Assembly (NCBI GenBank): GCA_029858565.1
Contig: JAOUEV010000018.1
Location: 1 to 54,185, forward strand
DNA from: Nitrospirota bacterium
Lineage (GTDB): Bacteria > Nitrospirota > UBA9217
Direction of reading: 5' to 3'
DNA: 54,185 bases
How positions within the stretch are numbered: position 1 is the first letter of the stretch; each line of letters opens with the position of its first letter. Shown piece after piece: positions 36,496-52,784 of this stretch. Position numbers and translations under genes: made by a program. A model generated the notes under the pieces. It saw only the letters and a program-made list of their open reading frames with translations, was not told where the DNA came from and did not search any database.

Positions 36496-39400
36496 ATGGG
36501 GGTATCAAGGAGAGATTTTCTAAAGATCTCCGGAAGTACCTTGCTCCTGGGACCGCTTGCCGCGCCCGCGAAAGCTGACGCGCAAACGCCCGAGAGCAAG
36601 ACCAAGGGGGCAACGGAAACACGCACCATCTGTCCCTATTGTTCTGTAGGCTGCGGTATCATCGTTCACACCAAGGACGGCAAGGTGGTGAACACCGAGG
36701 GCGATCCCGAGCATCCGATCAACGAGGGAACGCTCTGCCCCAAGGGCGCATCGATCATGCAGCTGGTGCAGAACGACACCCGCGTCCTGAAGCCCATGTA
36801 TCGGGCCCCGGGCGCGGACAGCTTCAAGGAAGTGGAGTGGGAGTGGGCCCTGGACAAGATCGCGAAGAACGTGAAGGAGTCCCGCGACAAGTCCTTCAAG
36901 CTCACTTCGAAATCAAAGGTCAAGGAAAAACAGCCTGACGGCACGGACAAAGAGGTCGAGAAAGAATTCACGGTCAACAGGACCGACGCCATTGCCCATG
37001 TGGGCAGTGCGGCCCTGGACAACGAGGAGTGCTATCTGCTCCAGAAGATGCTCCGGTCCTGGGGACTGGTATATATAGAACACCAGGCGCGCATTTGACA
37101 CTCCGCAACTGTAGCGGCTCTGGGAGAGTCGTTCGGGCGCGGTGCAATGACGAATCACTGGATCGATTTCAAGAATGCCGACGTTATCCTCGTCATGGGC
37201 GCCAATCCGGCGTCGAACCACCCCATTTCCATGAAATGGGTGATGCGTGCAAAGGAGAAGGGCGCGAAGCTCATCGTGGTGGACCCCCGGTTCACCCAGA
37301 CCGCTTCCAAGGCGGACCTGTACGCGCCCATGCGCTCGGGAACGGACATTGCCTTCCTGGGCGGGATGGTCAAGTACATAACGGACAACAACCTCTACTT
37401 CAAAGACTACGTCGTCAACTACACGAATGCCGCGTTCCTCGTGAACCCGGATTTCAAGGGCCCCGGCGATCTGAACGGCCTGTTCTCGGGGTATGACGAA
37501 AAGACGCGGAAGTACGACAAGAAGACCTGGGGCTACCAGATGGGCGAGGACGGGATCCCGAAAAAGGACCCGTCGCTGAAAAGCCCGAACTGCGTGTTCC
37601 AGCTTCTGAAAAAGCACTATGCCCGCTACACCCTGGACAAGGTTTCGTCCATCACGGGAACGCCCAAGGACAAGCTTGAAGCAGTTTACAAGCTTTATGG
37701 TTCCACGGGCAGACCGAACAAGGCCGGCACCGAGCTCTACGCCATGGGATGGACCCAGCACACCGTCGGCACCCAGAACATCCGGACCATGGCGATCATC
37801 CAGCTCCTGCTCGGCAATATCGGCATTGCCGGCGGCGGGATCAACGCCTTGCGCGGGGAATCGAACGTTCAGGGGTCCACGGACCACGGGATCCTGTTCC
37901 ATCTCCTGCCGGGGTACAACGCGACGCCGTCTGCGGCGCTCGCGGACCTGAACGCCTACATCGAGAAGTTCACGCCAAAGACCAAGGACCCGCGCAGCGT
38001 GAACTGGTGGTCCAACAGGAACAAGTACATTACGAGCTATCTGAAGGCCATCTACGGCAAGGCCGCCACCAAGGAGAACGATTTCGGGTACGCCTGGCTG
38101 CCGAAGCTCGATGAAGGCCAGAACGCCTCCTGGCTCATGCTCTTCGACAAGATGAGCAAAGGCCAGTTCGACGGCTTCTTTGCATGGGGTCAGAACCCGG
38201 CCTGTTCCGGCGCGAATGCGAACAAGGTCCGGAAAGCCATGTCCAAGCTTAAGTGGATGGTGAACGTCAATCTTTTCGACAACGAGACGGCGTCCTTCTG
38301 GAAGGGACCGGGCATGAATCCCAAGGAGATCCAGACCGAGGTGTTCATGCTGCCCTGCGTCTCGTCGATCGAGAAGGAAGGCAGCATCACCAACTCGGGC
38401 CGGCTCGCCCAGTGGCGGTACAAGGCCATCGAGCCGCTCGGCCAGTCCAAGCCCGATGCGGAGATCATGAACGAGCTGTTCCTGAGGGTGCGGGAGATCT
38501 ACCGGAAGGAAGGCGGCAAGTTCCCGGCGCCGATCCTGAACACGACCTGGAACTACGGCAAGAAGATCAATATCCACGACGTTGCCAAGGAGATCAACGG
38601 ATACTACCTCGAGGATGTGTACGACAAGAAGGCGAACCCGCCGAAGCTGCTTGGTAAGAAAGGCGAACTCTGCGCCTCCTTTGTCCATCTTCAGGCAGAC
38701 GGCACCACATCCTCCGGCAACTGGCTTTTCAGCCAGAGCTACACGCAGAAAGAAGGCAAGGTCATCAATATGATGGCACGCCGCGGCAAGGATGATCCGA
38801 CAGGTCTGGGTCTCTATTCCGGCTGGGCATGGGCATGGCCGGTGAACCGGCGCATTATCTACAACCGTGCGTCGGTTGATCTGAAGGGCAATCCCTGGGA
38901 CCCGAAACGCGCGGTCGTCAAATGGGACCCGGTCAAGGAAGACCCTGCGACCAAGAAGCCCGGCGTCTGGGTCGGGGATGTGCCGGACGGTCCCGCGCCG
39001 CCCATGGGAGATGCGGGCAAATATCCTTTCATCATGAAGAACGACGGTGTTGCATCGATCTACGGCCCGGGACTGAACGACGGGCCCTTCCCGGAACATT
39101 ACGAGGCGCTCGAGTGTCCTCTCGAGGAGAACATCCTTTCCAAGCAGCGGATCAACCCGACGATCAAGATGTTCAACGACAAGGATGACGCGTTCTTCTC
39201 CTGCGACACGCGCTATCCCTTTGTCGCCACGACCTACCGCGTGACCGAGCACTGGCAGACCGGTGTGATGACCCGCCATACTCCCTGGCTCCTGGAGATG
39301 CAGCCGCAGCAATTCGTGGAAATGAGCAGGGAACTGGCCGCGGAGAAGAGCATCAGGAGCGGCGACCGGGTGAAGATCAGGTCCGGACGCGGAGAGATCT

Positions 39401-39612
39401 CGGCCGTTGCCGTGGTCACCTCGCGGTTCAAGCCCTTCAAGATCGGCGGCCAGACCGTGCACCAGGTCGGCATGCCCTGGTGTTTCGGATGGCAGTATCC
39501 GGGCGACGCGAAGTCCGGGGACAGCGCGAACCTGCTGACACCCACCATCGGGGACGCGAACACCATGATCCCCGAATCCAAGGCGTTCATGGTGAACGTC
39601 GAGAAAGCATAG
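36496..39612 (+). CDS. fdnG: Formate dehydrogenase catalytic subunit, selenocysteine, Tat-exported
   Basis: The product has 1038 residues if TGA 37096-37098 is read as selenocysteine (Sec201). It starts with the twin-arginine signal SRRDFLK. Then comes the [4Fe-4S] motif CPYCSVGC...CPKG (Cys46, 49, 53, 81). The active-site context HQARI-U-HSATVAALGESFGRG matches the FdnG/FdoG type. Molybdopterin domains follow, with VMGANPASNHP, GMVKYITDNN and the C-terminal RSGDRVKIRSGRG. AAGGAGG precedes the ATG. The enzyme oxidises formate in the periplasm and passes electrons to the FeS subunit downstream. Without Sec reading, the gene would be two fragments broken exactly at the catalytic residue. Confidence 0.95.
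37099..37130 (+). promoter_or_regulatory. Candidate bSECIS of fdnG
   Basis: Just after the TGA, CCGC (37103-37106) pairs with GCGG (37114-37117) around a seven-base loop. An alternative CTCC/GGAG pairing (37101-37104 with 37123-37126) encloses it. Position fits a bacterial selenocysteine insertion element. The fold was judged by eye only. Confidence 0.5.
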
Positions 39613-41728: not shown

Positions 41729-42313
41729 ATGAGAACTGTATTCTTGCCCGTTCTGCTTATTCTGCTGCTTTGCACGATCCCTGTCCATGCAGGCCAGCGC
41801 GTCAATATTCCCCCTGAGAACTCTCCTACGCTCGGCCCTGATAATGCCCCGGTCACTATATTCGAATTCATTGATTTCCAATGACCGCACTGCGTGGCGG
41901 CCGGTCCGACCGTCAAGAAGATCATGGAAATCTATAAGGGGAAGGTGCGGCTGGTGATCAAGAACTATCCCTACAAGTACCGGGACTATTCCCGAGGCGC
42001 GGCGGAAGCGTCGCTGGCCGCCCGGGAGCAGGGAAAGTACTGGGAAATGCATGATCTGCTGATCAAACGATCGCCCAAGCTCGAGCGAGCAAGTCTCCTG
42101 GCATACGCGAAGGAATTGGGGCTGGATGTTCAAAAGTTCACGGCATCCATCGACGGACAGAAGTTCAAGGCCGAGATCGACCGGGACCTCAAACTTGCCG
42201 AGTCCCTTGATCTGTACAACACCCCGACCTTTTATATCAACGGCAGGCAGGTGATCGGAGAGCGGCCGTTCGAGTATTTCAGGAAGATCATTGACGAAGA
42301 GCTGAAAAAATAA
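41729..42313 (+). CDS. Selenocysteine DsbA-like thiol oxidoreductase, exported
   Basis: The product has 194 residues when TGA 41882-41884 is read as selenocysteine. It has a signal peptide MRTVFLPVLLILLLCTIPVHA, then the thioredoxin-fold start APVTIFEFIDFQ. The active site is U52-P-H-C55, where DsbA relatives have CPxC. The helical insertion follows (AAREQGKYWEMHDLL), then the cis-Pro loop LYNTPTFYINGRQV. The reading frame and similarity continue without a break past the TGA. GGAGGTC precedes the ATG. The protein should act on periplasmic dithiols. It lies behind the formate dehydrogenase terminator and before a di-heme peroxidase. Confidence 0.9.
41896..41911 (+). promoter_or_regulatory. Weak candidate bSECIS of the DsbA-like gene
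   Basis: GGCGG (41896-41900) pairs with CCGACC (41906-41911, one bulged A) around CCGGT, with the loop about 17 bases after the TGA. A rival hairpin (41902-41905 with 41909-41912) overlaps. Evidence is modest. Confidence 0.4.
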
Positions 42314-49520: not shown

Positions 49521-51098
49521 ATGTCAGAACAGGTGAAAGTGGCGAAAGCCGCGGGGATCGTCGGCGCGGCAACGCTGGCCTCGCGGATCATGGGGTATAT
49601 CCGGGACATGGTCATGTCCTGGGCCTTCGGGACCTCGGCAGCGGCAGATGCCTTCTATGTCGCCTATCGCATTCCCAACCTGCTCCGGGAACTGCTCGCC
49701 GAGGGGTCCATGTCCGCGGCCTTTATCCCGGTGTTCACCGAGACCCTCACCAGGGACGGCAGGGAGAAAGCACATCAGCTCGCGAACGCGGTCTTTGCCC
49801 GCCTGATGGTCATCCTGGCGGTGCTGACCGTGCTCGGCATCATCTTCGCGCCCCAGATCATCAGAACGATCGCCTGGGGCTGGAAGGCCGGGGCGCATCA
49901 GGACGCATTCCAGAGCGCGGTGCTGCTGACCCGGGTGATGTTCCCCTATCTGCTGTTCATCGGCCTGGCCGCCCTTGCCATGGGCATGCTGAACTCCCTC
50001 CGGTCCTTTCTCATGCCCGCGCTCTCGCCGGTGATGCTGAACATCTTCACCATCAGCGGCGTGGTATTCCTGGCTCCGCACATGCCCTCGCCGATCCAGG
50101 GAGCGGCTGTGGGAGTGGTGCTGGGAGGATTGTTCCAGTTCCTGATCCAGGTGCCGGGCCTGCGGAAAGAAGGGATGATGCTGCGGCCGGTCTTTTCTCC
50201 GAGCCATCCCGGCGTGGCCACGGTCGGCAGGCTTGCGGCGCCGATCTTTCTCAGCTCCTCGGTCACCCAGATCAATATCTTCATCGGCACGGTCCTGGCG
50301 TCCTTCCTCGCCACCGGGAGCATCACCTACCTTTTCTACGGCATGCGGTTCATCCATTTCCCGCTCGGCATCTTCGGTGTTGCTGTTGCAACGGCCATTC
50401 TTCCGACCCTTTCGACCCATGCGGCAAAGCAGGAAATGGAGGAGTTCCGGGATACGCTTTCCCTGGGCCTCAGGCTCGTGTTCTTCATCATGTTCCCGGC
50501 CATGGCAGGCCTCATCACGCTGGCGGTGCCGATCGTGAACCTGCTGCTGGAGCGCGGCGAGTTCAACCGCATGTCCACCCTGGGAACCGCATCGGCGCTG
50601 CTCTATTACGCCGTGGGACTCTGGGCCTTCGCCGGCGTCAGGATCGTGGCGCAGGCATTCTATTCGCTCCAGGACACCAGGACGCCGGTAAAGGTCGCGG
50701 TGCTGGCGCTCTTCACGAACATCGCGCTCAGCACGGTCTTCATCCTCTGGACCCCCCTTCAGCACGGAGGGCTGGCGCTCGCGACGTCGATCGCCGCGAT
50801 GGTGAACGTGGGGCTCTTGACCGTGGCGCTCCGGGAAAAGATCGGCCGCATGGACGGCAGGCGCATTTTCCTGTCCCTGGCGAAGATCGTTCCGGCTTCC
50901 GTTGCCATGGGCGTCATCGGCTGGCGGATCAGCCGGATGCCGATGTGGGAATCGCCGGGGAACAACCTGGTGAAGACGGAGCTGCTCGTTGGCGGGATAG
51001 CAGCGAGCGTGATCTTCTATCTCGGTGCGATGTGGCTTTTGAAGAGCGAAGAACTGGCATTCCTGTGGGGGATCGTGAAGAGACGAAGGAAGAAATAA
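49521..51098 (+). CDS. murJ: Lipid II flippase MurJ
   Basis: The product has 525 residues and 14 helices. The MurJ/MviN start AATLASRIMGYIRDMVMSWAFG and DAFYVAYRIPNLLRELLAEG is followed by SMSAAFIPVFTE. The central cavity arginines of the family are plausible in RDM and RRxx positions. It flips lipid II across the inner membrane for peptidoglycan synthesis. rpsT and murJ side by side and divergent is a frequent bacterial arrangement. The ATG at 49521 follows GGAGATGTGAACGC. Confidence 0.94.
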   Translation: MSEQVKVAKAAGIVGAATLASRIMGYIRDMVMSWAFGTSAAADAFYVAYRIPNLLRELLAEGSMSAAFIPVFTETLTRDGREKAHQLANAVFARLMVILAVLTVLGIIFAPQIIRTIAWGWKAGAHQDAFQSAVLLTRVMFPYLLFIGLAALAMGMLNSLRSFLMPALSPVMLNIFTISGVVFLAPHMPSPIQGAAVGVVLGGLFQFLIQVPGLRKEGMMLRPVFSPSHPGVATVGRLAAPIFLSSSVTQINIFIGTVLASFLATGSITYLFYGMRFIHFPLGIFGVAVATAILPTLSTHAAKQEMEEFRDTLSLGLRLVFFIMFPAMAGLITLAVPIVNLLLERGEFNRMSTLGTASALLYYAVGLWAFAGVRIVAQAFYSLQDTRTPVKVAVLALFTNIALSTVFILWTPLQHGGLALATSIAAMVNVGLLTVALREKIGRMDGRRIFLSLAKIVPASVAMGVIGWRISRMPMWESPGNNLVKTELLVGGIAASVIFYLGAMWLLKSEELAFLWGIVKRRRKK

Positions 51099-51145: not shown

Positions 51146-51649
51146 ATGCATACACCGTTCGGCTGGGCCGGGGCGGCAGCGTCGGACAAAGGCGTTGTCG
51201 CGATCATCCTTCCGAGGAAGTCCAAAGCCGCGGTCGCGCGTGAACTGGAGAACGCTACATGCCGGCCCGAAGCTGGTGGTGCTGTTGCTGAAAGGCTGCT
51301 CGCGAAAGTCGTGAAGCAGCTGGAGCGTTATTTCAAGGATCGTTCGATGACCGGTGATCTCCCGCTCGATCTTCATGGACATACGCCGTTTCAGCAGGCT
51401 GTTTGGAAGGCCGCTGCCGAGATACCTTGTGGTGAAACGCGGTCCTATGCGTGGATCGCGAAGCGCATCAAAAGACCGAAAGCGGCGCGGGCTGTTGGAC
51501 AGGCAATGGGAGCCAATCCCGTGCCGTTGCTCATACCCTGACACCGGGTCATCAGCTCAGCCGGGTCGCTGGGCGGGTTCGCGGGGGGATTGGAATTGAA
51601 GAAGAAGCTGCTGGAATGGGAAGGGATAAAAGTTATTCATTGCGGCTAA
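51146..51649 (+). CDS. ogt: Selenocysteine O6-alkylguanine-DNA alkyltransferase
   Basis: The product has 167 residues when TGA 51539-51541 is read as selenocysteine (Sec132). The N-terminal domain is short. The C-terminal DNA-binding domain has TPFQQAVWKAAAEIPCGETRSYAWIA, the helix-turn-helix ARAVGQAMGANPVP, and then LLIP-U-HRV where all active alkyltransferases have PCHR. The nucleophilic Cys is therefore exactly the TGA position. After it, SSAGSLGGFAGGLELKKKLL and EWEG continue the family sequence perfectly to a TAA. AAGGA lies nine bases before the ATG. A bSECIS-like hairpin follows the TGA. The alternative, an inactivated gene, needs a stop by chance at the catalytic codon and nowhere else. 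Confidence 0.88.
51555..51574 (+). promoter_or_regulatory. Candidate bSECIS of the alkyltransferase
   Basis: GCTCAGC (51555-51561) pairs with GCTGGGC (51568-51574, one G-T) around loop CGGGTC. The loop begins about 20 bases after the TGA and has G at its second position. Both fit the bacterial selenocysteine insertion element. Confidence 0.7.
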
Positions 51650-51957: not shown

Positions 51958-52148
51958 ATGGGATAATAAACAGTCAAAAACAAAATCAGGCAGGAAAGTA
52001 TTGCCTGTCGCTTACTCTGCGTCTTTGCGTCTTTGCGCGAGACAAAGTTTGCTTTTTAACGGGCGGGAGTGCAATGTTTAAGAGAACGATCTGCATCTTC
52101 GCGCTTGTTATTTTGATCCCAAACTGTACACGAACAGGAAAGATTACC

Positions 52149-52784
52149 ATGCAATTAATGAGAATCGTTGTGGGCCCCCTGCAGGTGAACTGCTACATCG
52201 TTTTCGACGAGAAGACAAAGGAGGCGGTAGTGATCGATCCGGGCGACGACGGGCCGAAGATCCTTTATGCGGTCAAGGACAAGGGGCTCAAGGTCAAGTA
52301 CATCGTCAACACCCATGCCCATTTCGACCATGTAGGCGCGAACCAGGAGATCAAGGACGCAACCGGCGCGGAGCTGGTCATCCACCAGGAGGACGACAAA
52401 CTGCTGGGGAATACGGCGGGCCAGGCGCGGATGTTCGGCATGACCGCGAACTCGTCTCCCAAGGCGGACCGGTATGTGAAGCACGGGGACATCCTGACAG
52501 CCGGCAGCGTCAAGCTCAAGGTCCTGCATACGCCGGGCCACTCGTCCGGCGGGATCTCTCTTGCCGGCGACGGCGTGGTGTTCACCGGCGATGCGCTCTT
52601 TGCCGGTTCCATCGGCAGGACAGACCTCTTCGGCGGCGATATGACGACGCTCATCACCGCGATCCGGGAGCATCTCATGACCCTGCCGGACGAGACCATC
52701 GTCCTTTCCGGCCATGGTCCGGACTCGACCATCGGCGAGGAACGGGCCGAAAATCCCTACCTGAACAGCAGGTCGGGGTTCTGA
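52149..52784 (+). CDS. Metallo-beta-lactamase fold hydrolase (glyoxalase II-like)
   Basis: The product has 211 residues from the ATG at 52149. The start MQLMRIVVGPLQVNCYIVFDE is typical of this branch. The zinc motif HAHFDH lies in NTHAHFDHVGANQ, followed by LHTPGHSSGG, FTGDALFAGSIGRTD and the final LSGHGPDSTIGEE His. The family includes hydroxyacylglutathione hydrolases and related thioester hydrolases. The frame is open to 52074, where it would add a lipoprotein-like leader (LIPNC). Family starts and AGGAAAG upstream favour 52149, but the longer form is not excluded. Confidence 0.88.
   Translation: MQLMRIVVGPLQVNCYIVFDEKTKEAVVIDPGDDGPKILYAVKDKGLKVKYIVNTHAHFDHVGANQEIKDATGAELVIHQEDDKLLGNTAGQARMFGMTANSSPKADRYVKHGDILTAGSVKLKVLHTPGHSSGGISLAGDGVVFTGDALFAGSIGRTDLFGGDMTTLITAIREHLMTLPDETIVLSGHGPDSTIGEERAENPYLNSRSGF

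Follow-up and report, generated by a model that had tools for sequence, protein, structure and literature searches.

The reading frame at positions 51146-51649 of contig JAOUEV010000018.1 from a Nitrospirota bacterium very probably encodes a selenoprotein, an Ogt in which selenocysteine (Sec), inserted via SelB at the UGA codon at 51539, takes the place of the catalytic cysteine and which performs an ordinary one-shot alkyl transfer. The window, that is the whole stretch of DNA that was analyzed, comprises 54,185 nucleotides, and the features under discussion are collected in Table 1. That Sec is actually incorporated, that the protein acts as an alkyltransferase and that each molecule reacts once are all inferred. 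Replacement of the catalytic Cys by Sec had been proposed in an earlier reading of the window made from the DNA letters (hereafter the sequence-only reading) and is now supported by the sel machinery of the genome, the conservation of the TGA codon, the coding constraint downstream of it and the pattern in which a hairpin occurs among relatives.

Table 1. Window coordinates of the features discussed; Sec assignments are predictions.
Feature	Position	Strand	Basis or remark
Predicted Sec-containing O6-alkylguanine-DNA alkyltransferase (Ogt/MGMT type), 167 residues including Sec132	51146..51649	+	PF01035, TIGR00589, AlphaFold model
UGA codon for predicted Sec132, position of the catalytic Cys (PCHR)	51539..51541	+	alignments to PDB AGTs and Cys orthologues
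PF01035 DNA-binding/catalytic domain, spans the UGA	51386..51628	+	profile match
SECIS-like hairpin	51551..51578	+	folding; conserved in Sec forms
Hairpin lower stem	51551-51553/51576-51578	+	
Hairpin upper stem	51555-51561/51568-51574	+	
Hairpin loop CGGGUC, six bases	51562-51567	+	starts 20 nt after the UGA
murJ (lipid II flippase), upstream neighbor kept in Sec and Cys relatives	49521..51098	+	PF03023 426 bits; synteny
MBL-fold hydrolase, conserved downstream neighbor	52074..52784	+	PF00753 130 bits; synteny
FdnG-type formate dehydrogenase alpha subunit, UGA 37096-37098 (RIUHSATV)	36496..39612	+	TIGR01553 1404 bits
DsbA-like thioredoxin-fold protein, UGA 41882-41884 (FQUPHC; predicted Sec in UPHC motif)	41729..42313	+	PF13462 106.5 bits

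The ogt frame contains a lone in-frame TGA, codon 132, and closes with a TAA stop at 51647-51649 (translation MHTPFGW...NPVPLLIPUHRVISSAGSLGGFAGG...LEWEG...). Among its 167 sense codons, TGA is thus found solely at the nucleophile. With the TGA read as Cys, the product matches PF01035 with 121 bits (cut-off 27) over positions 1-81 of the 81 in the profile and TIGR00589 with 116 bits, and the PF01035 match continues through the TGA. Alignment with solved O6-alkylguanine-DNA alkyltransferases (AGTs) and with Cys-form homologues places this codon on the catalytic Cys of PCHR in an otherwise complete protein, exactly where the sequence-only reading had put it; that reading was also right about the frame, the coordinates and the normal stop, as well as the family sequence that resumes beyond the TGA (HRV, GGFAGG, LEWEG). 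The family's catalytic Cys itself is absent, since codon 132 is TGA and Sec is expected there. No disabling change other than the TGA was found in the frame.

Across an alignment of 26 homologous sequences, Y101, R115, N124, P131, H133, R134 and E159 are invariant, as is position 132, at which Sec was entered as C. We take Y101, R115, N124, the PxHR motif and E159 to act as AGT active-site residues. The AlphaFold model (mean pLDDT 90.2) has the two-domain AGT fold; AGT/ATL proteins account for all 42 of its PDB matches at E <= 0.001, and E. coli Ada (1SFE) superimposes with a TM score of 0.80. In fold, PxHR motif and active-site surroundings, the protein therefore resembles the Cys-containing Ogt, Ada C-terminal domain and MGMT proteins (1SFE; M. 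tuberculosis Ogt, 4BHB; human MGMT, 1EH6), from which it would differ in having Sec as nucleophile. It carries GGF where human MGMT has Tyr158, and GGF also occurs in many bacterial Cys forms.

In the reading that we favor, SelB, Sec-tRNA(UCA) and the hairpin just past the codon would direct insertion of Sec at UGA 51539. The resulting Sec-Ogt would flip the damaged base out and take the alkyl group once onto its own selenolate, ending as an inactive protein with Se-alkyl-selenocysteine. A likely benefit is that the low pKa of a selenol would make the nucleophile lean less on active-site deprotonation. A single-use protein made with an expensive residue is biologically odd, and this counts against what is otherwise the best explanation. 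If the selenol instead produced a functionally different alkyltransferase, one from which the Se-alkyl group can be removed to allow turnover, or which has other substrates or is redox-gated, that would account for whole lineages holding on to Sec in a protein supposed to be used only once; we consider this quite unlikely. As to going beyond one shot by regeneration (multiple turnover) or by redox sensitivity or gating, selenols are generally known to be more nucleophilic and to be reversibly oxidized, the fact that many lineages retain Sec points to some benefit, and most known selenoproteins are oxidoreductases (PMC2398784). Against this, no Cys or Sec that could act as a resolving residue is conserved around the active site (Cys166 at the C-terminus of Ogt has no counterpart in its relatives), every canonical AGT residue is retained, and Sec and Cys forms exchange at a single locus; as a matter of general chemistry, moreover, removing an alkyl group from a dialkyl selenide is not easy. 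Regeneration, which the sequence-only reading had raised, is on these grounds very unlikely, the other active-site residues being those of a one-shot enzyme.

The assignment of Sec is supported by the relatives of ogt. Within its own Nitrospirota family, codon 132 is TGA in nine of 12 orthologues (this genome counted), so that a Cys codon (TGC in one, TGT in two) is present in the other three. murJ lies upstream of ogt in 12/12 of these orthologues and the MBL hydrolase gene downstream in 11/12, for Sec and Cys forms alike, the locus lacking the latter (L115) being on a contig fragment of G011. Because the murJ-ogt-MBL locus is common to both, the Sec and Cys forms of the family are true orthologues, and two genomes of the same genus, G006 (Sec) and G005 (Cys), hold both forms at one locus. 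In a phylum sample of 396 genomes, no TGA form was present outside the family among the matches listed. TGA forms recur in the order containing the Desulfobacteraceae record HyVt-17, where 31 of 46 homologues have one TGA and where the TGA occupies the same codon as in ogt in 22 of the 25 loci aligned. With TGA confined to the nucleophile codon in ogt, this recurrence goes beyond chance. A test on a tree of 93 homologues does not reject one clade that unites the Sec forms of Nitrospirota with those of the Desulfobacteraceae type (p 0.589); monophyly of the Sec forms within the Nitrospirota family is not strictly rejected either (p 0.093). Separately, three genomes (G013, G003 and G001) encode a distant Cys-type PF01035 protein (L116, L118 and L119, respectively) that has no counterpart in the genome carrying ogt.

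The sequence after the TGA also behaves as coding sequence. When Sec orthologues are compared, the 28 codons that follow the TGA show 148/82/286 differences at codon positions 1/2/3 and the 28 that precede it 146/79/391, against 129/124/135 past the end of the gene. Third positions thus vary most on both sides of the TGA, unlike beyond the gene, indicating that the part after the TGA is translated. These data bear on the possibility that the TGA is a recent nonsense mutation and ogt a pseudogene whose product is truncated just before the nucleophile. TGA is indeed one step from TGT or TGC, and it is general knowledge that such a truncated product would be inactive; a pseudogene is nevertheless highly improbable given the same-codon TGA in most family orthologues, the single TGA in most homologues of the other order, the coding constraint that goes on past it, the absence of further disabling changes and the presence of sel genes.

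The genome, which spans 3.9 Mb and is rated 100% complete, has what Sec decoding requires: selB adjoins selA on contig C101, a tRNA-Sec with anticodon UCA was found, and there are two selD genes with one in-frame TGA each. The two selD genes are divergent, L019 (G000:C3:2376-3290) having the motif GUACK and L020 (G000:C14:90529-91446) the motif GUAAK. The prediction from the sequence-only reading that the organism decodes Sec is thereby confirmed at the level of gene content, and the two further in-frame TGAs that it had noticed at catalytic positions in the window belong to the formate dehydrogenase and DsbA-like genes of Table 1. The UGA of the former constitutes independent evidence of Sec decoding, that of the latter further evidence. 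The same reading had named two situations that would speak against it, a genome devoid of Sec machinery and a damaged copy among relatives that all have Cys; what was found is the machinery, and an undamaged frame among relatives of which most have TGA. Since ogt is the sole PF01035 gene of a genome rated complete, no Cys copy covers for the putative Sec-Ogt.

Sel genes are likewise present in the other family genomes with a Sec form, apart from gaps in three of them: selA and selB were not detected in G001 and selA was not detected in G009, both of which have tRNA-Sec, and tRNA-Sec was not detected in G004, which has selA and selB. Missing contigs are the simplest reason for these gaps; as selA and selB adjoin elsewhere, one missing contig could explain the gap in G001. 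G012, whose own Ogt uses Cys, nonetheless carries two selA-selB loci, on contigs C42 and C71 (one selB match being partial).

Reading of the UGA as Trp or Cys, through a changed code or general suppression, would equally leave the ogt frame open, as it is under other codes. However, the nearby genes lptE, holA and that of the MBL hydrolase use TGA as an ordinary stop, and in the relatives L107 and L109 one TGA is used as Sec and a second TGA as stop within the same gene; UGA is therefore not reassigned genome-wide. Together with the UCA anticodon of the tRNA-Sec, this leaves such a reading with only a slim chance, and Sec remains the preferred assignment.

Downstream of the codon, a SECIS-like hairpin can be folded. 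A stable hairpin at 51555-51574 had been part of the sequence-only reading; its position holds, its stability does not, as single-sequence folding revealed no excess stability over shuffled sequence (z -0.20), and the support for a SECIS comes from comparison. The same structure was obtained in 8/8 family Sec forms folded, with GG at loop positions 2-3 (NGG...) in all forms aligned, and is lost in two of three family Cys orthologues (G002 and G012) while being kept in G005. Among the eight Sec forms, wobble positions within the stem are either invariant (alignment columns 15, 18, 30, 33 and 36) or limited to changes from A-U to G-U or from U-G to U-A (columns 21 and 39), and those in the loop or outside the hairpin are variable (columns 6, 9, 12, 24, 27 and 42). 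Measured against synonymous reshuffling, folding energy gave a mean z of -2.05 in the eight Sec forms and of 0.02 in nine other Cys forms from Nitrospirota; support is weaker in the Desulfobacteraceae-type order, where z for the Sec forms averages -1.31 and scatters widely. Covariation counting yielded no compensatory double changes in the stem, and the region has no Rfam match. Since neither the single-sequence fold nor covariation gave support, the case for the hairpin rests on its conservation and on the contrast between Sec and Cys forms.

As judged from these alignments, presence of the hairpin appears largely to track TGA rather than Cys. Its retention in the Cys form of G005 is what a recent Sec-to-Cys change would leave, this genome sharing its genus with the Sec-bearing G006. 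In the Desulfobacteraceae-type order, L181 (G454) has Cys (TGC) followed by a very stable hairpin and is the tree neighbor of the Sec form L182; it is possibly another recent Sec-to-Cys change. That ogt is really a Cys gene with a sequencing or assembly error, for which a single wrong base in the multi-contig source assembly would suffice, has next to no probability, as many genomes assembled independently of one another have TGA at this codon, together with a hairpin that Cys forms mostly lack.

The idea of a Sec alkyltransferase is not new. Sec-containing methylated-DNA-protein-cysteine methyltransferase is listed as a predicted bacterial selenoprotein family (PMC2398784, PMC9312934, PMC13188914), which bears out the vague memory of survey reports voiced in the sequence-only reading. 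In the GOS selenoproteome the family counts as already known and is represented by one sequence (PMC2398784), ABB14497.1 serves as the example in reviews of 2022 and 2026 (PMC9312934, PMC13188914), and the latter review credits the family to Zhang and Gladyshev 2007, a study of a deltaproteobacterial symbiont of an Olavius worm (PMC13188914). Such an origin fits the abundance of Sec forms in the Desulfobacteraceae-type order. The protein described here resembles the published family in being bacterial, in belonging to PF01035/COG0350 and in having predicted Sec at a Cys position, and is likened to it by these features; by sequence it would belong with this known Sec variant of the AGT family and not with the Cys form. 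In contrast to the single sequence of the GOS entry, the Sec form is here the majority both in a Nitrospirota family and in one other order. What is added is a predicted Sec form as the sole AGT of a Nitrospirota genome, the breadth of its distribution and the exchange of Sec and Cys at a fixed locus.

No biochemical study of a natural Sec alkyltransferase was found in the literature searched. A human AGT engineered to carry Sec145 is active in DNA repair in E. coli, shields the bacterium from MNNG and no longer needs Asn137 (PMC4150793). It has Sec at the nucleophile, as predicted for Ogt, and differs in having been made by an artificial UAG/EF-Tu route rather than by the natural SECIS/SelB pathway. 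The Asn that this human enzyme can do without (N124 in Ogt) is retained in the natural Sec forms.

Most bacterial selenoproteins are redox enzymes, and a selenoprotein consumed in one reaction would be an exception to the usual selenium economy. Gene calling with the standard code truncates ogt, a gene for a DNA-repair protein of the type that strips methyl groups from guanine, just before its active site. The Nitrospirota ogt family offers an unusually good natural comparison of Sec and Cys: because ogt is the sole AGT gene of its genome and has Cys orthologues at the same locus, both the benefit of Sec and the route of Sec/Cys exchange are directly testable.
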